This document shows positions 3,836 through 44,310 of a DNA stretch of 52,337 bases, in pieces. Every line of letters begins with the position of its first letter. The first letter of the stretch is position 1. The stretch is from NCBI GenBank assembly GCA_021775875.1, contig JAJFHA010000006.1:1-52337 (forward strand), in the 5' to 3' direction. This DNA comes from Hyphomicrobiales bacterium (lineage in GTDB: Bacteria; Pseudomonadota; Alphaproteobacteria; Rhizobiales; NORP267). The notes below the pieces were generated by a model. It searched no databases, was not told where the DNA came from, and was given only the letters and a program-made list of their open reading frames with translations. The position numbers were made by a program, and so were the translations under genes.

Positions 3836-5207
3836 ATTGTTCACGGTATTTGTGGGCCACCCGCTGGGCGACAATATTGAGACCTAGGGTGATCAGAAAC
3901 AGCATCAAACCAAGGGCGAAGGCCGCCAGTGTTTTCGGATTATCGAATTCGGTGTCACCGATCAGGAGGGTAACAATCTGAACTGTCACGGTGGTCACTG
4001 AATTGAGCGGGTTTGCCGTCAGATTGGCGATCAGTCCGGCAGCCATAACAACGATCATGGTTTCACCAATGACCCGGCTGGCGGCAAGCAAGACGCCGCC
4101 CATGATGCCTGGCAGGGCCGCTGGCAAAAGCACTTTGGAAATGGTCTCGGCGGGTGTCGCGCCCAGCGCCAGCGATCCTTCCCGCATGGAACGGGGAACA
4201 GCCTGGATGGCATCGTCGGCGAGAGATGAAATGAACGGGATGATCATGATCCCCATCACGGCTCCTGCGGCGAGGGCACTGTTTGGCGCAATATTCAAAC
4301 CGATTGAACTACCAAAGGTGCGCATTGAAGGGGCGATCACCAAGACGGCAAAAAAGCCATAAACGATGGTCGGAACGCCAGCCAGGATTTCAAGTGCCGG
4401 CTTGGCGATGGCGCGAAACCGGGGTCCGGAAAATTCAGTGAGATAAGTAGCCGACAAAAGCCCGATCGGCACCGCCACTACAAGCGCGATTATGGCAATC
4501 AGGAAGGTGCCGGCAAAAACCGGGATGGCACCAAATGCGCCTTGGCCTGCTACTTGATCGGCGCGGATCGCGATCTGCGGTTCCCAGTTCAGGCCGAACA
4601 GAAATTCGTGCACCGGGACGTGGCGGAAAAAGGCAATCGATTCGTAAACCAGCGAAATGATGATACCGATGGTTGTGAGGATGGCGAGGGTGGCGCAGAT
4701 GATCATCAGGCCATCGAGCAGAAATTCAATCTTGTCGCGGGCCTTGAAACGAGGAGCGATGCGAGCGCGGGTCACCAAAAACCCGGCAATGGCCAGAAGC
4801 AATGCAATTGCGAACAGGCTCCAGTTGGCAATCGCCAACCAGCGCAGATAAGTGCTTGCGGCCTCACGAACGGCAAGGGTTGGTTCTTTGAAAATGATGT
4901 CCCGCGCCACTGCTTTGATTTCGAGAAGCAACAACCCGCGCTGGCCTTCATCAAGCCCGGCCAAAGCTGCGTTGGGAATGGTGGTCATGATCAAAGTATC
5001 GAGAACGGAATTCTGGACCAGCAACCAGATCAGGATCAGGAAAAGGGAAGGAATTCCAACCCAGGCGGCGACAAAAGCACCGTGATAAGTCGGGCGTGAA
5101 TGCAATTTTGAACCGGTCACGATCACCAGACGGGTCGCTTTTCTCCGGCCCAGATTATAAGCCAGGATCGAAAAAACCAGTAACATCAGGAATAGTATCG
5201 ACAACAT
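3828..5207 (-). CDS. pstC: Phosphate ABC transporter permease PstC
   Basis: This 459-residue permease partners PstA. It has N-terminal membrane segments at about residues 1-20 and 45-70, a further long insert, and a MetI-like domain with the EGSLALGATPAET coupling motif. The start at 5207 is chosen because the frame upstream (to 5264) runs through a strong stem-loop with a T-run at 5238-5271, and a CCGGA ribosome binding site precedes 5207. PstC is about 150 residues longer than the E. coli protein, as is common in alphaproteobacteria. It overlaps pstA by 8 bases. Confidence 0.93.
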   Translation of the reverse strand: MLSILFLMLLVFSILAYNLGRRKATRLVIVTGSKLHSRPTYHGAFVAAWVGIPSLFLILIWLLVQNSVLDTLIMTTIPNAALAGLDEGQRGLLLLEIKAVARDIIFKEPTLAVREAASTYLRWLAIANWSLFAIALLLAIAGFLVTRARIAPRFKARDKIEFLLDGLMIICATLAILTTIGIIISLVYESIAFFRHVPVHEFLFGLNWEPQIAIRADQVAGQGAFGAIPVFAGTFLIAIIALVVAVPIGLLSATYLTEFSGPRFRAIAKPALEILAGVPTIVYGFFAVLVIAPSMRTFGSSIGLNIAPNSALAAGAVMGIMIIPFISSLADDAIQAVPRSMREGSLALGATPAETISKVLLPAALPGIMGGVLLAASRVIGETMIVVMAAGLIANLTANPLNSVTTVTVQIVTLLIGDTEFDNPKTLAAFALGLMLFLITLGLNIVAQRVAHKYREQYD

Positions 5208-30970: not shown

Positions 30971-32146
30971 ATGCTGCTAGAGGTGGTTTATTCACCAACT
31001 CTTATTCTGGGCTCGCTGGCTGTCGCGATCATGGGATCGTTCACGGCTTTGCGTCTGACCTCCAATCTTCGCGATCTGACAGCAGGTCAGCGCAAGTTTC
31101 GGGTCACGCAGGGTGCGCTGGCGTTAGGCACCGGCATCTGGTCCATGCATTTTACCGGGATGCTTGCGGTGTCGCTGCCGATCCCGATCAGTTTTGATCC
31201 GTTGCGCACACTGGCGTCCGCGCTTCTCGCAGTGCTGGTTGTCGGCATGGCGCTTTTGTCGTTGCATTTCGGCGTCAGAACAAAGACACGGATTTATATT
31301 GCCGGGATTATTACCGGCCTCGGTATTGTCAGCATGCATTATCTGGGCATGAGTGCGATATCGGCAAATTGTATCGTGACTTACAGTCCAGCCGGGATTT
31401 TGCTGGCAATCGGCATTGGTATCGCGTCGTCGATAGCGGCGATTGAGCTCGCCTATGGCAATCGATCGCTTCTCAGCATTTCAGCTGGTTCTGTGGTTTT
31501 GGGATTAGCTATTTCCGCGATGCATTATTCGGCGATGTATTTTACGGTTTTCAGCCTTGGGGTGGAACTGACCCATGTTCCGACTTCTCTTCTGGATACC
31601 GACCAGATGGCGCTGGTTGTGGTGCTGTCTTCTTTTGTGCTCTCCGGACTATTCCTTTTGATGACCATGCCAGGCGACAACCGGTTTCAACTTGGCGGGC
31701 AAGATATTGCCCCAACAAGTGATGTTGCGGCACGGTTGGGTGAGCAGGATCAAAATACGTCAAGCGCGGTTTCGGTTGACACCTCAACGAACGGCACAAT
31801 TGTCCCGCAGAAACAAATCAATATTCCCTATGAGCGCAACAAAGTGCTCAGGTTCCTGCCTGCCAACACAATTAAAGTTATAAAGGCGGATGGTCATTAC
31901 TCACGTATCAATAACGGCGAAGGGGATTTGTTCTGTCCGTGGTCGATTTCGCGGATAGAGAAAAAACTGGATCCGGCGGATTTCATGCGCACCCACCGCA
32001 GTTTCATTGTCAACAAAACTCACATTACCGGCTTTCGACGTGATGGTGACAAGGCGTTCTGTATTGTCGGCACTGACAACGGCATCGAAATTCCGGTCAG
32101 CCGTTCCCGGGTAGCGGAAATGCGTAAGGTCCTCCAACTGAACTGA
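30971..32146 (+). CDS. coxC: CoxC-like MHYT sensor with LytTR DNA-binding domain
   Basis: This 391-residue membrane regulator has about seven transmembrane segments forming an MHYT domain (residues 8-235). The signature repeats MHFTGM, MHYLGM and MHYSAM are thought to bind a metal able to sense CO, O2 or NO. A linker follows, then a C-terminal LytTR DNA-binding domain (about 285-391, with KVIKADGHYSRI, FMRTHRSFIVNKTHI and IPVSRSR). CoxC and CoxH of Oligotropha have this architecture and gene position. It has GGAGGGA before its ATG and lies upstream of coxMSLDEF in the same direction, so it probably governs CO-dependent expression. Confidence 0.88.
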   Translation: MLLEVVYSPTLILGSLAVAIMGSFTALRLTSNLRDLTAGQRKFRVTQGALALGTGIWSMHFTGMLAVSLPIPISFDPLRTLASALLAVLVVGMALLSLHFGVRTKTRIYIAGIITGLGIVSMHYLGMSAISANCIVTYSPAGILLAIGIGIASSIAAIELAYGNRSLLSISAGSVVLGLAISAMHYSAMYFTVFSLGVELTHVPTSLLDTDQMALVVVLSSFVLSGLFLLMTMPGDNRFQLGGQDIAPTSDVAARLGEQDQNTSSAVSVDTSTNGTIVPQKQINIPYERNKVLRFLPANTIKVIKADGHYSRINNGEGDLFCPWSISRIEKKLDPADFMRTHRSFIVNKTHITGFRRDGDKAFCIVGTDNGIEIPVSRSRVAEMRKVLQLN

Positions 32147-32223
32147 GCGCAATCGACTTAATCCGCATTTAGCGCAAGAATCCCGCAGTTCGTGCATTCA
32201 AATCGACTGCCGCCCATTGGCAC

Positions 32224-32273
32224 TCCCTCCTGCCAAACGTTCGAATCTAGAATGTAAAAAAAAGCAGGAGGGA
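32224..32273 (+). promoter_or_regulatory. Stem-loop sequestering the coxM ribosome binding site
   Basis: TCCCTCCTGC (32224-32233) is a perfect 10-base complement of GCAGGAGGGA (32264-32273), which contains the coxM Shine-Dalgarno sequence; the ATG is at 32276. Inside the loop, ACGTTC (32237-32242) pairs with GAATGT (32250-32255, one G-U), followed by eight A residues. The mRNA could therefore hide or expose the coxM start. Confidence 0.7.
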
Positions 32274-32275
32274 AC

Positions 32276-33139
32276 ATGATACCGGGTTCATTTGAATATC
32301 ACCGACCATCGTCGCTTGCCGACGCTGTCGGATTGTTGTCGTCATTAGGTGACGATGCGTTGTTGGTAGCTGGCGGACATAGCCTTATCCCGATGATGAA
32401 ATTCCGCATGGCCGTGCCTGAGCATCTGGTAGATCTTCAGGATGTGAAATCGCTGAAATCCATTTCACTAGATAGTGGTCAGATTTCGCTCGGTGCGATG
32501 GTTACACAGGCTGAAATAATCCTGTCTGATGAGCTGCATGTAGCCTGTCCCATACTTCGCGAAGTTTCTTATCAGATTGCCGATCCGCAAATCCGTAATC
32601 TGGGTACCATCGGCGGCAACGTTGCCAATGGCGATCCGGGCAATGACATGCCGGCGATTATGCAGGTTTTGGACGCAACATATATTCTGACTGGCCCGGA
32701 TGGCGAGCGGGAAATTGCGGCACGCGAATTTTATGAAAGCGCATTTTTTACGGCGCGTCAGGACAACGAAATCCTGACGACGATCCGTTTTGCCGCTCCT
32801 GCAGCGGGGCATGGCTCTTCATATGTCAAACAGAAACGCAAGATTGGCGATTATGCAACAGCTGCTGCCGCGGTGATCGTGACCATGTCGGGTGACACCT
32901 GCGCGTCCGCATCTATCGGATTGACGAATGTCGCAGATACACCACTTTGGGCTGAAAATGCCGCCTCCCTTCTGGTTGGATCGTCGCTTGATGGTGAAAC
33001 GATTAAGGCCGCAGCAGACGCCGCCAAGGCAATCACCGATCCGGCAGATGATGGCCGTGGGCCCAAAGATTATCGCACCCATATCGCAGGCATCATGGTG
33101 CAACGCGCCATCGCAAATGCCGTTGACCGTGCCAAATAA
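32276..33139 (+). CDS. coxM: Carbon monoxide dehydrogenase medium (FAD) subunit CoxM
   Basis: This 287-residue flavoprotein subunit of aerobic molybdenum CO dehydrogenase passes electrons from CoxS iron-sulfur clusters to the respiratory chain. FAD-binding motifs are visible: AGGHSLIPMMKFRM (about residues 32-45) and TIGGNVANGDPGNDMPA (about 111-127). The length equals that of the Oligotropha protein (288). It precedes coxS and coxL in the canonical M-S-L order. A strong AGGAGGG ribosome binding site is paired in a stem-loop just upstream, which may control its translation. Confidence 0.95.
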   Translation: MIPGSFEYHRPSSLADAVGLLSSLGDDALLVAGGHSLIPMMKFRMAVPEHLVDLQDVKSLKSISLDSGQISLGAMVTQAEIILSDELHVACPILREVSYQIADPQIRNLGTIGGNVANGDPGNDMPAIMQVLDATYILTGPDGEREIAAREFYESAFFTARQDNEILTTIRFAAPAAGHGSSYVKQKRKIGDYATAAAAVIVTMSGDTCASASIGLTNVADTPLWAENAASLLVGSSLDGETIKAAADAAKAITDPADDGRGPKDYRTHIAGIMVQRAIANAVDRAK

Positions 33140-39286: not shown

Positions 39287-40663
39287 CTATAATCCTTTCG
39301 ATGACTTAGGCTCTGGAAATGGCAATTGAAAGCAGACCTTTAGCCCGCCCAGTGATGATTTCTCGAAATCCAGGGTCTGCTGGTAGATTTCCAGCACATC
39401 GTTCACGATTGCCAATCCAAGTCCTGAACCGGCAATAGACTGATCCAGGCGCGCACCCCGCTTCTGTACTGTTTCTCGCAATACGTCGGAAATCCCAGGA
39501 CCATCATCCTCGATCTCAAATGTCACCAAATTGTTGATGATGAAGGCTTTGACAACAACACGGCTTTTGGCGTGCTTCACGGCGTTCTCTATCAGGTTGC
39601 CCAAAATTTCCGTCAAATCGTCTTTTTCAATTTGCACGTAGAGATTATGACTGCATTCGGTTTGAATCGTCTTTATCTCTCCATCAGGTGTCCGCCGTAA
39701 TGTTGCAACGATCCCGTCCAGAATGGGTACGATTTGCACTGACGGGATATTTCCAGCTTCGCGTAACCGTGCTGATGTCAGCTCTTTATCTATATGCCTG
39801 CGCATGATCTGTGTTGCTGTCTCAATTTCCCCTGCTATCTCGTCTTCGCCCTTGTCCCGCAATCGCCTGATATCAGAAATGAGGGCAGTGAGAGGTGTTT
39901 TGAATCCATGAGCAAGATTGTCAGCACGGTGTTTCTCCCTCTGCATAATAATTTCCTGCGCTGCAAGGAGATCATTGACTTCTTTCGCCAAAGGTAAAAC
40001 TTCACTTGGTAAATCAGCGCTGATCCGGGATGCCGTGCCATTGCGGATCGAGGCAACTGATTTTTGAACAAGGGATAATGGACTGAGACCCATCGTAACC
40101 TGAACCCAGGCAGCGGCGAGTAGAAAAGTACCCAATAAGAGCAGAGAAAGTGCGACTTCAGCGGCGAAAACCGAACTCAATATTTCCAATTCCGCCAAAT
40201 CCAGCGCGACAGCCATGCGGACAGTTTGTTCGCCAATCGGCGAACGGAATATCAAACTGCGTTCGTGGACCAGCAACGAAGATTTTTGAGGGCCTCCTAT
40301 GTAATGCGAATGCACCGCATTGGGCCCGTGGGCTTCGGCAGGCAATATTAGCTCAGTGTCCCACAAGGATCGCGAACGGATTGTCTGGTCAACTGTCGTA
40401 TTCACGATTTGCCAGTACAGACCCGAGTAGATGTTATCAAACCGGGGGTCAGCGAGTTTGCTGCCAAGTTGAGGCTTTCCAGATTGATCGAAACTGAGAC
40501 GAGCGGCAATTTGGGTAAGGTAGGTATCGAGTTCAGTGTCTATCCTTCGCTCGACAGATCTTTCAAATAAATATGTGAGACTGTATCCTGTAATTCCCAA
40601 TGCCAAAATGATTGCAACTGCCTGAAGTGCAAGCAATCTGATTTTTAGCGAACGGGTTTTCAT
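39287..40663 (-). CDS. Sensor histidine kinase, PhoQ-like
   Basis: This 458-residue kinase has transmembrane segments at about residues 9-30 and 165-190 flanking a periplasmic sensor of about 130 residues, then a HAMP-like linker, a HisKA-like helix pair with phospho-His in NLAHGFKTPLTAL, and a HATPase domain (NLIENAVKHAKS, DDGPGIS, AGSGLGLAIVNDV). The LAHGxKTPL form of the H box occurs in PhoQ/BasS-type kinases of alphaproteobacteria. It overlaps the regulator gene by ATGA. With eptA and dgkA close by, it may sense envelope stress or cationic peptides. Confidence 0.9.
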   Translation of the reverse strand: MKTRSLKIRLLALQAVAIILALGITGYSLTYLFERSVERRIDTELDTYLTQIAARLSFDQSGKPQLGSKLADPRFDNIYSGLYWQIVNTTVDQTIRSRSLWDTELILPAEAHGPNAVHSHYIGGPQKSSLLVHERSLIFRSPIGEQTVRMAVALDLAELEILSSVFAAEVALSLLLLGTFLLAAAWVQVTMGLSPLSLVQKSVASIRNGTASRISADLPSEVLPLAKEVNDLLAAQEIIMQREKHRADNLAHGFKTPLTALISDIRRLRDKGEDEIAGEIETATQIMRRHIDKELTSARLREAGNIPSVQIVPILDGIVATLRRTPDGEIKTIQTECSHNLYVQIEKDDLTEILGNLIENAVKHAKSRVVVKAFIINNLVTFEIEDDGPGISDVLRETVQKRGARLDQSIAGSGLGLAIVNDVLEIYQQTLDFEKSSLGGLKVCFQLPFPEPKSSKGL

Positions 40664-41325
40664 ATTTGTTCAGTCATGACGATATAGCCAAACCCGCGAC
40701 GGGTCTCGATGAGACCATTGCCCAATTTACGTCGCAACCTGCCAACAAGAACCTCCACTGCATTTGATTCGCGATGCTCATGCTCTCCCTGCAGGTGTTC
40801 GGCCAGTTCCTGCTGGGGTACGACCCGGCCGCAATGAAGCATCAGGTAGGATAAAAGACGGTATTCCTGCGGTGTGAGGATTTTTGGCACGCCCTTGACT
40901 GTTACCCGCATCTGCCGGGGATCCAGTTTGAGGTCACCAACAATGATAACCGAATCTGCGTGTCCTGCGGACCGCCGGATAACCGCCCGCAACCGGGCCA
41001 ATAATTCATCCATTTCGAAGGGTTTTGGAAGGTAATCGTCAGCGCCTGCGTCGATACCTTCGACCCGTTCACTCCAGGACCCCCGCGCCGTCAAAACAAG
41101 AATAGGGAAACGGCGTCCATTTTCCCGCCACTTTTTCAAGATCGTCAAGCCGTCCATATTTGGCAACCCTAGATCGAGTATAATTGCCGCATAGTCCTTG
41201 GTATCTCCCATGAACCATGCTTCTTCGCCATCGCTTTCCTGATCAACGATATAACCCGCATCCGTGAGCGTATCACTGACGTCCCGTACAATGCGGGGAT
41301 CATCTTCAACGAATAATATACGCAC
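40660..41325 (-). CDS. OmpR-family response regulator, PhoP/QseB-like
   Basis: This 221-residue regulator has a receiver domain (E7/D8/D9 pocket, phospho-acceptor D51 in AIILDLGLP, K101 in PKPF) and a C-terminal winged helix (LTPQEYRLLSYLM, VEVLVGRLRRKLG, RRGFGYI). It starts with GTG at 41325, sharing one base with the stop of the PepSY gene upstream, and overlaps the kinase gene by four bases, so the three form a coupled operon. It likely controls the divergent PepSY-cytochrome b561-eptA-dgkA genes. Confidence 0.92.
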   Translation of the reverse strand: MRILFVEDDPRIVRDVSDTLTDAGYIVDQESDGEEAWFMGDTKDYAAIILDLGLPNMDGLTILKKWRENGRRFPILVLTARGSWSERVEGIDAGADDYLPKPFEMDELLARLRAVIRRSAGHADSVIIVGDLKLDPRQMRVTVKGVPKILTPQEYRLLSYLMLHCGRVVPQQELAEHLQGEHEHRESNAVEVLVGRLRRKLGNGLIETRRGFGYIVMTEQI

Positions 41326-42076: not shown

Positions 42077-42649
42077 ATGGCTGTCATTGAAAAAAAAGCC
42101 GGGGTTAGTTGCACCGAGGAGCGCGGAGACCTCAAGGTATGGGATATCGCTGTCCGGCTATTTCACTGGTTCCTGGTTTTCGCGTTCACAATTGCCTGGA
42201 TCACCGGAGATGAATGGGACCGGGTCCACGAAGCCGCCGGCTATATTGTCGCCGGGCTGGTAGGGTTGCGAATTCTTTGGGGTTTCTTAGGTTCCCGGCA
42301 CGCAAGGTTTGCTGACTTTGTTTATAGCCCGAAATCAATTTTCAACTATCTGCGCGAAACCCTACACCACAATGCAAAGCGTTATTTGGGTCATAATCCG
42401 GCCGGTGGCGCCATGGTTATCGCTCTTTTGATATCACTTTTTGCTGCGACAGCATCAGGAATTCTGATGACGACCGACGCTTTCTGGGGCGTGGAATGGG
42501 TCGAGGAAATTCACGAAGCAATCGTAAATTTTGTTCTTTTTCTGGTCTTTTTGCATGTTGCCGGTGTCATTCATTCGAGCTTCGTGCATCGCGAAAATCT
42601 TGTCCGCTCAATGATCAATGGCCGCAAACGTCGGGGTTCTGACCAATGA
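42077..42649 (+). CDS. Cytochrome b561-family membrane protein
   Basis: This 190-residue protein has four predicted transmembrane helices and conserved His residues suited to haem b ligation: LFHWFLVF near residue 30, HEAAGYIV near 54, IHEAIVNF near 148 and FLHVAGVIH near 161. It would carry electrons across the inner membrane; the acceptor is unknown. It begins 2 bases after the PepSY stop and overlaps eptA by ATGA. Confidence 0.9.
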   Translation: MAVIEKKAGVSCTEERGDLKVWDIAVRLFHWFLVFAFTIAWITGDEWDRVHEAAGYIVAGLVGLRILWGFLGSRHARFADFVYSPKSIFNYLRETLHHNAKRYLGHNPAGGAMVIALLISLFAATASGILMTTDAFWGVEWVEEIHEAIVNFVLFLVFLHVAGVIHSSFVHRENLVRSMINGRKRRGSDQ

Positions 42650-44310
42650 GCACGACTCCAGTGTTTTCAGGAATGATGCTTCCCTGGAATAGATATTCAA
42701 AGCGTATTTACCGGCCAGAAATTGGATGCAAAACCTTAAGTGTATTTGTCTCAATATATACGCTGGTCTTTCTGAATTTTACCTTTTGGCACAAGGGAAT
42801 GGAATATTATTCCGGGCATATTGTTGATTTTGTGATTTTAGGTGTCGGAATATTTCTATTATTAAATGCAGTCATACTTAGTTTTTCAGTCAAATATTGT
42901 ATAAAACCCATATTCATTCTGTTTATTTTGATATCTGCGGTTTCATCCTATTATCAAGACACATTCGGAATTTTGATTACGAATGAAATGATCCGGGATG
43001 CGGTTACAACGACTGTGAACGAAGCCCGCCATCTGATAACCGGGAAATTTGTTTTTCACGTTTTTGTTTTTGGTATTGTACCGAGCTTCCTGGTTGGCTG
43101 GATAAAGGTGAAACACCAGACAATCCTGACGAAAGTCGCCACCAACACCGCCTACATTTTGGCGTGCGTCGTTGTGATTTTGGGGACGGTTACCGTCAAT
43201 TACCCACTCAACGCGTCGGTATTTAGAAACCACCACGATTTTATTGGTAGCCTGAACCCTGTAGGACCAATTGCCAGCGCCATAAAGTATACCCGGATTA
43301 TTTTGTCCGAGCGAAATATTGTTGTGGCGCCGCTTGGCCTGGATGCGGAAAAAGGGCCCTTAGCAACTGCGGCCCCCAATCCGGTAATTACAATCCTCGT
43401 GGTTGGCGAGACCGCCAGGGCACAAAATTTCAGCCTGAATATCTATGATCGCGAGACCAACCCTGAACTCGCTCGGAGAAATGTCATCAGTTTTACGGAT
43501 GTGACCAGCTGTGGCACAGCAACGGCCGTATCAATGCCCTGCATGTTTTCATTGGATGGGCGCTCTGAACATTCAAGTTCCAGAGGCTTATCGAATGAGA
43601 ATTTGCTGGATGTCTTGGTTCACGCCGGTGTCAATGTTGTCTGGTGGGACAACAATACAGGAGACAAGGGCGTCGCTGCCAGGATTCCCAGCGAAAACCT
43701 CTCACGGGGTGATACTGTGCCATTCTGCCGCGACGGAGAATGCGACGATGGTATCCTTGTTGACCGGTTAAATCGCTATATTGGAGATCTCACGGAAGAT
43801 ACCGTTATTGTCATGCACCAGATTGGCAGTCACGGCCCTTCTTATTATTTGCGTTACCCACCTGAATTTGAAAAATTCACTCCGGCTTGCAGCACAGATC
43901 AGCTTGGCGACTGCACACAGGCTGAAATCATCAACGCGTATGACAATACAATATTGTATACCGACCATGTCTTGGCTCAGATTATTGATCTTCTGGAAGC
44001 TCAAGAGGACAATTTCGTTACCTCGATGATTTATATGTCGGATCATGGCGAGTCCCTCGGAGAGTTCGGGCTTTACCTCCATGGGGCACCGTACCTGATC
44101 GCCCCCGAAGTCCAGACAAGGGTTCCGTTTATCATGTGGCTCTCTCCGGAATTTGCCAGCACAATGCACATTGATTCCTCGTGCCTGCGGTCACGCCGCG
44201 AGTTGGAAGTCTCTCACGACAACCTGTTTCATTCGGTATTGGGTGGCATGAATATTCATACCGAAATATATCAACGTGATCTCGATATCTTTGCGTTATG
44301 CCAATCCTAA
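42646..44310 (+). CDS. eptA: Lipid A phosphoethanolamine transferase, EptA-like
   Basis: This 554-residue inner-membrane sulfatase-fold enzyme has about five N-terminal transmembrane helices (residues 25-185) and a periplasmic catalytic domain. Active-site elements are present: zinc-ligand Glu in VVGETARAQNFSL, nucleophile Thr in CGTATAVSMPCMFS, and the Asp/His pair in MSDHGESLGE. It transfers phosphoethanolamine from phosphatidylethanolamine to lipid A, lowering surface charge and giving tolerance to cationic peptides; MCR enzymes belong to the same family. It is followed by dgkA, which removes the diacylglycerol by-product. Confidence 0.9.
   Translation: MSTTPVFSGMMLPWNRYSKRIYRPEIGCKTLSVFVSIYTLVFLNFTFWHKGMEYYSGHIVDFVILGVGIFLLLNAVILSFSVKYCIKPIFILFILISAVSSYYQDTFGILITNEMIRDAVTTTVNEARHLITGKFVFHVFVFGIVPSFLVGWIKVKHQTILTKVATNTAYILACVVVILGTVTVNYPLNASVFRNHHDFIGSLNPVGPIASAIKYTRIILSERNIVVAPLGLDAEKGPLATAAPNPVITILVVGETARAQNFSLNIYDRETNPELARRNVISFTDVTSCGTATAVSMPCMFSLDGRSEHSSSRGLSNENLLDVLVHAGVNVVWWDNNTGDKGVAARIPSENLSRGDTVPFCRDGECDDGILVDRLNRYIGDLTEDTVIVMHQIGSHGPSYYLRYPPEFEKFTPACSTDQLGDCTQAEIINAYDNTILYTDHVLAQIIDLLEAQEDNFVTSMIYMSDHGESLGEFGLYLHGAPYLIAPEVQTRVPFIMWLSPEFASTMHIDSSCLRSRRELEVSHDNLFHSVLGGMNIHTEIYQRDLDIFALCQS

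Follow-up and report, generated by a model that had tools for sequence, protein, structure and literature searches.

Described systems with LytTR operators or covered ribosome sites

In the phage T4 lysozyme gene, which has early and late transcripts, and in the transposase genes of IS10 and IS50, which are protected from outside transcription, the Shine-Dalgarno (SD) sequence is covered only in the longer read-through RNA, and it has been proven experimentally that transcripts from the genes' own promoters begin inside the 5′ arm or past it and thus give rise to translatable RNA. In SD-sequestering RNA thermometers and translational riboswitches, the entire hairpin lies inside the regulated mRNA. 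Among regulators of cox genes, RcoM1 has a haem domain with a PAS fold.

The closest described promoter is PcoxB of Afipia carboxidovorans OM5, where, according to the available text of PMC11347149, CoxC is a repressor that binds TTNNNGCN direct repeats in an operator overlapping the predicted -35 box. The same text describes a LytTR-type direct-repeat triplet at the cox promoter for RcoM1 of Paraburkholderia xenovorans, and it attributes CO sensing by RcoM1 to its haem domain, unlike the membrane MHYT regulator considered below. The Afipia coxB promoter region was also active as a lacZ fusion in E. coli, as that source reports in its available part.

We analysed a stretch of 52,337 nucleotides from a Hyphomicrobiales bacterium (contig JAJFHA010000006.1; hereafter the window), in which a stem had been noticed over the ribosome binding site of coxM. 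Among the papers listed in our searches of the open-access literature, none described leader control of coxM. The gene encodes the medium (FAD) subunit of CO dehydrogenase (32276..33139, with its ATG at 32276; Pfam FAD_binding_5 and CO_deh_flav_C) and lies directly downstream of coxC, which encodes an MHYT-LytTR regulator (30971..32146; Pfam MHYT 1.8e-35, LytTR 5.8e-19); both genes, and all features of the intervening gap, are given on the plus strand. On the 3′ side of coxM follow coxS, coxL and then genes for an AAA ATPase, a VWA_CoxE protein and an XdhC/CoxI-like protein. CoxL carries the motif AYRCSFR, which we take to correspond to the form I motif AYXCSFR. Beside the cox cluster there is a histidine kinase/response regulator pair near a gene for an EptA/EptB-type phosphoethanolamine transferase (39287-41325 on the minus strand, and 42646-44310).

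For comparison, coxM loci were gathered from other genomes, mainly alphaproteobacterial. The first genome set gave 30 loci, a further round kept 80 of 552 relatives, and more sampling followed; some match to CoxM was present in 81 of 101 genomes (the window's own included), many of these matches being weak. The usable loci numbered 200 (192 distinct), comprising 112 in set 1 and 88 in set 2, which was gathered afterwards, and dereplication at 75% leader identity retained 90 and 60 of these, respectively, for a total of 150 leaders. Paralogues at most 37% identical (L021-L030 in our numbering of loci) were left out, as were L054, which has no start motif, and six duplicates from set 1. From set 2 we left out L152, L183, L224, L237 and L242, which either escaped the start-motif search or were not long enough (L183 being a fairly near relative with 67% CoxM identity), and, by choice, L153 (Paraburkholderia). 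A CoxC-like ORF lies upstream of coxM on the same strand in 99 of the 112 set-1 loci; only 4 dereplicated loci have another gene there, too few for a contrast by presence of coxC.

The putative operator and promoter of coxM

The coxC-coxM gap contains two LytTR direct repeats of CoxC type with a summed score of 20 out of 22. Repeat 1, CGCATTTAGCGCA at 32164..32176, agrees with the motif at 9 of 11 positions and lies 20 nt from repeat 2, CGCAGTTCGTGCA at 32184..32196, which agrees at 11 of 11 and serves as the anchor (+0) of the register used throughout. CoxC- and RcoM-type operators would be expected to show three TTNNNGCN repeats at 18-21 bp; two are matched here (TTAGCGCA at 32169 and TTCGTGCA at 32189, spacing 20), and a third is not matched in the window at 32209-32216. 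The place of this degenerate third repeat, CGACTGCCGCCCA at 32204..32216, corresponds to +20..+32, where relatives keep conserved T/G columns. A cox promoter near a LytTR regulator gene is another mark of such systems, and here coxC adjoins the gap, the promoter being present by prediction. Elsewhere in the window, LytTR-like matches occur at 1848, 7173 and 36826 (minus strand): two are single matches scoring 10, and one is a weak pair (scores 9 and 8) inside a gene.

Similar repeats are a regular feature of these loci. Before coxM, 103 of the 112 set-1 loci have direct repeats that follow the pattern CGCAnTTCGTGnA at intervals of 19-22 nt. Repeat pairs scoring at least 15 were found at 183 of the 200 loci (176 of 192 distinct, 137 of 150 dereplicated) compared to 35 of 1444 random 220-nt windows, and pairs scoring at least 18, on a scale with a maximum of 22, at 163 of 200 (157 of 192 and 121 of 150) compared to 0 of 1444. 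To judge by these motifs, the gap holds a putative CoxC-type LytTR operator, at which CoxC may bind.

The position of a promoter relative to the repeats is also conserved. A first bipartite promoter scan gave a -10 peak at +63/+64 (z of 3.1 and 3.3), and of 137 leaders, that of the window among them, 90 show the pattern nAnnnT at +63..+65, compared to 8-24 of 122-137 leaders in each of the other 3-nt bins between +45 and +83. In the 73 leaders whose repeats are spaced by 20 nt, conservation is well above the 99% null for T at +41, for T at +69 and for A at +77, and relatives prefer C/A at +75..+77. The predicted -10 box of coxM, TAGAAT at 32248..32253, lies exactly at +64, and the near relatives L002 (TACAGT), L003 (TAACCT) and L004 (TATTCT) fit at the same position as the window, while L031 (TCTACT) and L051 (ACAATG) do not fit the pattern at +64. 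On this evidence from conservation, coxM transcription should start near 32260; the predicted start, 32259..32261, falls inside a run of A residues, 6-8 nt past the -10 box and +75..+77 from repeat 2. The -35 hexamer in register is a poor one, TCCCTC, and this, like the unmatched third repeat, counts against the reading of the locus that we prefer below. An alternative promoter, TTGGCA-N18-TCGAAT at 32217..32246, has a -35/-10 score of 7.7, the highest among 73 leaders, and lies 7 nt off the conserved register.

The Afipia coxB promoter region has TTGATG-N18-TATCGT at +40/+64, and so, by the present reading, its -35/-10 pair is as far from repeat 2 as the pair in the window. An Afipia ATG lies 626 nt past the upstream gene, in agreement with the dnaA-coxB gap in the available text of PMC11347149, and the repeats lie 272 and 251 nt before it. 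Judged against PcoxB as that text describes it, the window is alike in having a gene for an MHYT-LytTR regulator in the cox cluster and TTNNNGCN repeats about 20 nt apart, and differs in that its repeats stand directly before coxM and not coxB and that the third repeat is unmatched. Furthermore, the predicted -35 region of coxM lies beyond the repeats, a layout which the same text ties to LytTR activators. The Afipia -35 that we recognise, TTGATG, likewise lies beyond repeat 3, in contrast to the operator-overlapping -35 of PMC11347149 as described in its available part, and the two assignments may differ. Independently of the stem, our comparison predicts LytTR sites and a promoter before coxM in most of the loci examined, with a weaker set at Afipia coxM; the operator reported in the available text of PMC11347149 is at coxB. 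In the Afipia plasmid pHCG3 (L150; coxM at 4501), the DNA before coxM, and not only that before coxB, has a LytTR-like repeat at -155, followed some 20 nt later by a weaker repeat, and a TTGAAT resembling a -35 box stands in register.

Several other features of the gap were noted. A predicted start within a run of eight A residues makes slippage at initiation conceivable. A perfect dyad, TTGGCA-N8-TGCCAA at 32217-32236, which overlaps the 5′ arm of the stem, may be a protein site or may have arisen by chance. The sigma-54 consensus is TGGCAC-N5-TTGC, and a sigma-54 promoter at 32217-32233 was rejected, since TTGGCACTCCCTCCTGC exceeds the consensus by one base and has no TT, and no such columns are conserved there among the 73 leaders aligned at 20-nt spacing. 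If the window's two repeats were taken for the second and third of the triplet, the 5′ arm of the stem would move onto the pyrimidine tract of the relatives; we rejected this assignment too, as the -10 place would then read TCCTGC, compared to TAGAAT otherwise.

The stem over the coxM ribosome site

The first-pass annotation had drawn attention to a perfect ten-base stem hiding the coxM ribosome site, and the sequence bears this out. The 5′ arm, TCCCTCCTGC at 32224..32233, is complementary over all 10 nt (100%) to the 3′ arm, GCAGGAGGGA at 32264..32273, which carries the coxM SD, and the arms of this inverted repeat are 30 nt apart. The loop indeed holds the second hairpin and the eight A residues that had been claimed for it: the hairpin (32237..32255) pairs ACGUUC at 32237-32242 with GAAUGU at 32250-32255 across a 7-nt loop, one of its six pairs being G-U, and the A run occupies 32256..32263. 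In fold predictions the SD is paired with a probability of 1.00 in any RNA that includes both arms. A 75-nt fold of the region reaches -24 kcal/mol (z of -3.2), with 1 of 200 shuffles equally good.

The two halves of the stem appear to lie on opposite sides of the transcription start. The 5′ arm, at +40..+49, occupies the -35/spacer place of the predicted promoter and appears to span about -36 to -27. With either promoter reading, the alternative having the arm in its spacer, the start is predicted at about 32253-32261 and the arm would lie 20-37 nt upstream, inside the promoter. It follows that a coxM messenger from its own promoter should lack the arm, and that the hairpin would form only in RNA arriving from farther upstream, of which coxC is the simplest source; the inner hairpin, likewise, is present only in RNA starting upstream of 32237. 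No terminator-like site was found in 32100-32320. For window RNA starting at 32253-32261, predicted SD pairing is 0.24-0.47, varying with how far the fold extends into coxM. Extending the RNA by the 12 nt before the predicted start gives no gain in the window (0.24 to 0.25), which again counts against our preferred reading.

The locus would resemble T4 lysozyme, IS10 and IS50 in that, as we analyse it, the proposed cover over the SD would exist only in read-through RNA while the gene's own start would lie past the 5′ arm; in fold prediction the SD is covered once upstream sequence is included, as in the T4 e/IS10 type of lock. Those are phage or insertion-sequence genes, and the window, by contrast, presents a metabolic operon and a prediction. 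Like thermometers and riboswitches, the window stem covers the SD, and unlike them its 5′ arm appears to be promoter DNA. Against the covariance models of Rfam 15, the 2.5 kb of the window that was searched gave only a chance-level MIR171_1 match elsewhere and 16 relatives' loci gave only a tRNA at the gathering threshold, and we assign the stem to no riboswitch or thermometer family of that release.

A stem of this length is rare. At least 10 Watson-Crick pairs over the SD arose in 0.25% of 4000 dinucleotide shuffles, in which the 53 nt upstream were shuffled and the SD side was kept fixed. They also arose in 1 of 4656 crosses, in which every third upstream piece from the control genes and coxM relatives was joined to every third SD piece from the control genes. 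As controls we used 142 crudely called ORF starts that score 5 or more for their SD, drawn from the window and from 19 further stretches of its own and related genomes. Among the 150 dereplicated coxM leaders, the 10 pairs of the window form the longest perfect run covering the SD, followed by runs of 9, 8, 8 and 8, compared to a maximum of 6 in the 142 control genes; the leader z of -4.4 is also the lowest among the 90 set-1 leaders, the next being -2.8. We estimate the chance of finding one such stem somewhere in the 52-kb window at about 1-10%, assuming roughly 45 genes, a guessed number.

SD pairing in relatives and competing explanations

As a class, coxM leaders pair with their SD more than expected. 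Mean SD pairing was 0.723 compared to 0.645 in their own shuffles (90 leaders, p 2e-5), and 0.603 compared to 0.598 in the 142 control genes. Significant helices between the SD and upstream sequence (p of at most 0.05) occurred in 18 of 90 set-1 and 9 of 60 set-2 leaders, compared to 8 of 142 controls. In relatives, the complementarity to the SD resides in a tract of pyrimidines around +66..+76, where the -10 box ends and the discriminator lies; of 24 set-1 arms (helix p of at most 0.15, starting at +56..+90), 19 do not extend past +76 and 5 do. When the 12 nt before the predicted start were added, mean SD pairing rose from 0.490 to 0.716 (121 leaders, p 1e-11), compared to 0.641 with tracts swapped in from other loci (121 leaders, p 1.3e-4). 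Downstream of the predicted start (+77 to -23, 60 leaders) there was no signal of SD complementarity, own and swapped sequences giving -2.43 and -2.41 (p 0.46), and the zone upstream of the tract gave no signal either (within-cluster own-versus-swapped p of 0.10-0.46, both sets combined).

The first-pass annotation had suggested looking for compensatory changes among relatives, and to this end the own tract of each leader was compared with tracts swapped in from other loci. Own tracts exceeded swapped ones in set 1 (p 2e-4; within protein clusters 2e-4 to 1.2e-3) and, within protein clusters, in both sets together (p 0.0005-0.0055). In set 2 the p values, first for all loci and then within clusters, were 0.085 and 0.048 for +56..+78, 0.17 and 0.10 for +66..+78, and 0.44 and 0.33 for +62..+76. 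When each locus was compared to its 8 nearest relatives only, p was 0.09 one way and 0.01 the other. In control genes the own-versus-swapped effect was absent once GC was matched (p 0.39; 0.07 unmatched). RNAalifold, run with MAFFT, gave no consensus helix in 23 and in 13 Rhodobacteraceae leaders and a weak six-pair helix in 9. The covariation between tract and SD in relatives, weaker in the independent second set, is best regarded as probable but not proven.

Seven near relatives were inspected individually. An SD helix was not significant in five of them, namely L002 (CoxM identity to the window 80%; p 1.0), L031 (72%; 0.73), L051 (71%; 0.46), L053 (69%; 0.12) and L004 (65%; 0.96). The other two have different SD helices, of twelve pairs including G-U in L003 (69%; p 0.025) and of six pairs in L058 (66%; p 0.033). 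In the nearest, L002, the promoter position of the window arm is still occupied by a pyrimidine tract, TATTCCTCCTTC, even though its repeat 2 lies 221 nt from the ATG compared to 92 nt in the window. These distances indicate that leader length is very plastic and that a tract of this kind can be maintained with no SD close by. Furthermore, the window arm at +40..+49 lies outside +66..+76, so that by position it is not the same feature as the tract of the relatives. The near relatives favour the view that the promoter sequence is primary and that SD pairing is secondary or accidental.

We prefer a reading in which the promoter embeds a lock on RNA that reads through from coxC, and we hold it to be about evenly balanced between right and wrong. 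In this arrangement, the coxC-coxM gap would hold a LytTR operator of CoxC type and, downstream of it, a sigma-70 promoter for coxMSL. The messenger from this promoter would start near 32260 with the SD half only, leaving the ribosome site largely accessible, whereas RNA reading through from coxC would contain both halves and have its SD sequestered by the ten pairs of the stem. Any action of the stem, should there be one, would then be to lock coxMSL translation from read-through RNA, and the enzyme would be made only from the LytTR-flanked promoter. The stem, the repeats, the -10 register and the SD pairing are computed; the start site, the existence of read-through RNA, binding by CoxC and the effect on translation are what we infer from them. 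The anti-SD within promoter DNA may be there either by chance or by selection. A serious possibility, ranking a close second, is that the arm is promoter sequence rich in pyrimidines whose match to a strong, purine-rich SD is fortuitous, and that the stem is without function in any RNA. The frequencies among shuffles and crosses are low for a single gene and not negligible over the genes of the window, and the tract kept in L002, the five near relatives with no significant SD helix and the weak covariation in set 2 all point the same way. Against this explanation stand the excess of SD pairing in coxM leaders over controls, the advantage of own over swapped tracts in the combined set, and the window's run being the longest of 150 leaders.

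The first-pass annotation had instead proposed a translational switch within the coxM mRNA that sets CO dehydrogenase output, and for such a switch, whether a thermometer or a protein- or ligand-bound leader, transcription would have to start upstream of 32224 and SD access be regulated. The complete sequestration of the SD and the nested inner hairpin would suit it if the RNA starts there, as would the enrichment of SD pairing in coxM leaders and the coxM SD of the studied model, Afipia OM5, which is also predicted to lie in a hairpin (-29.7 kcal/mol). By the -10 register, however, transcription would begin past the arm in the window and, in relatives, where the tract ends; no SD-complementarity signal was seen downstream of that start, and neither the RNAalifold nor the Rfam results reveal a common structure beyond the weak helix in 9 leaders, so that we consider such a switch improbable.

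If the stem spans the transcription start, it is not a riboswitch of the CO enzyme, and probing coxM mRNA for the hairpin would mislead; if it also silences read-through RNA, the promoter would insulate a metal-enzyme operon from the upstream regulator gene. A wider version, which we advance tentatively and consider rather unlikely, is that in alphaproteobacterial cox clusters the coxMSL core promoter doubles as an anti-SD, such that read-through RNA would be translationally dead and own-promoter RNA live. In its general form, this wider version would have a non-transcribed -10/discriminator stretch complementary to the gene's own SD, the -35/spacer stretch taking that place in the window organism. 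Were it true, promoter DNA would carry an anti-SD shielding a CO-induced operon from the upstream regulator gene.

Other leader structures were observed among the loci. In the Roseibium-like leaders L034, L063, L069 and L080, and also in L072, which have GTG starts, a stable GC hairpin stands just upstream of the SD; no significant helix between the SD and upstream sequence was found in L034, L063, L069 and L080, and in several of these leaders the predicted fold partly pairs the SD with the start of the coding region. The Afipia hairpin was obtained by folding an 84-nt stretch, and the coxM SD of Bradyrhizobium betae (L151) lies in a similar hairpin (-33.1 kcal/mol).
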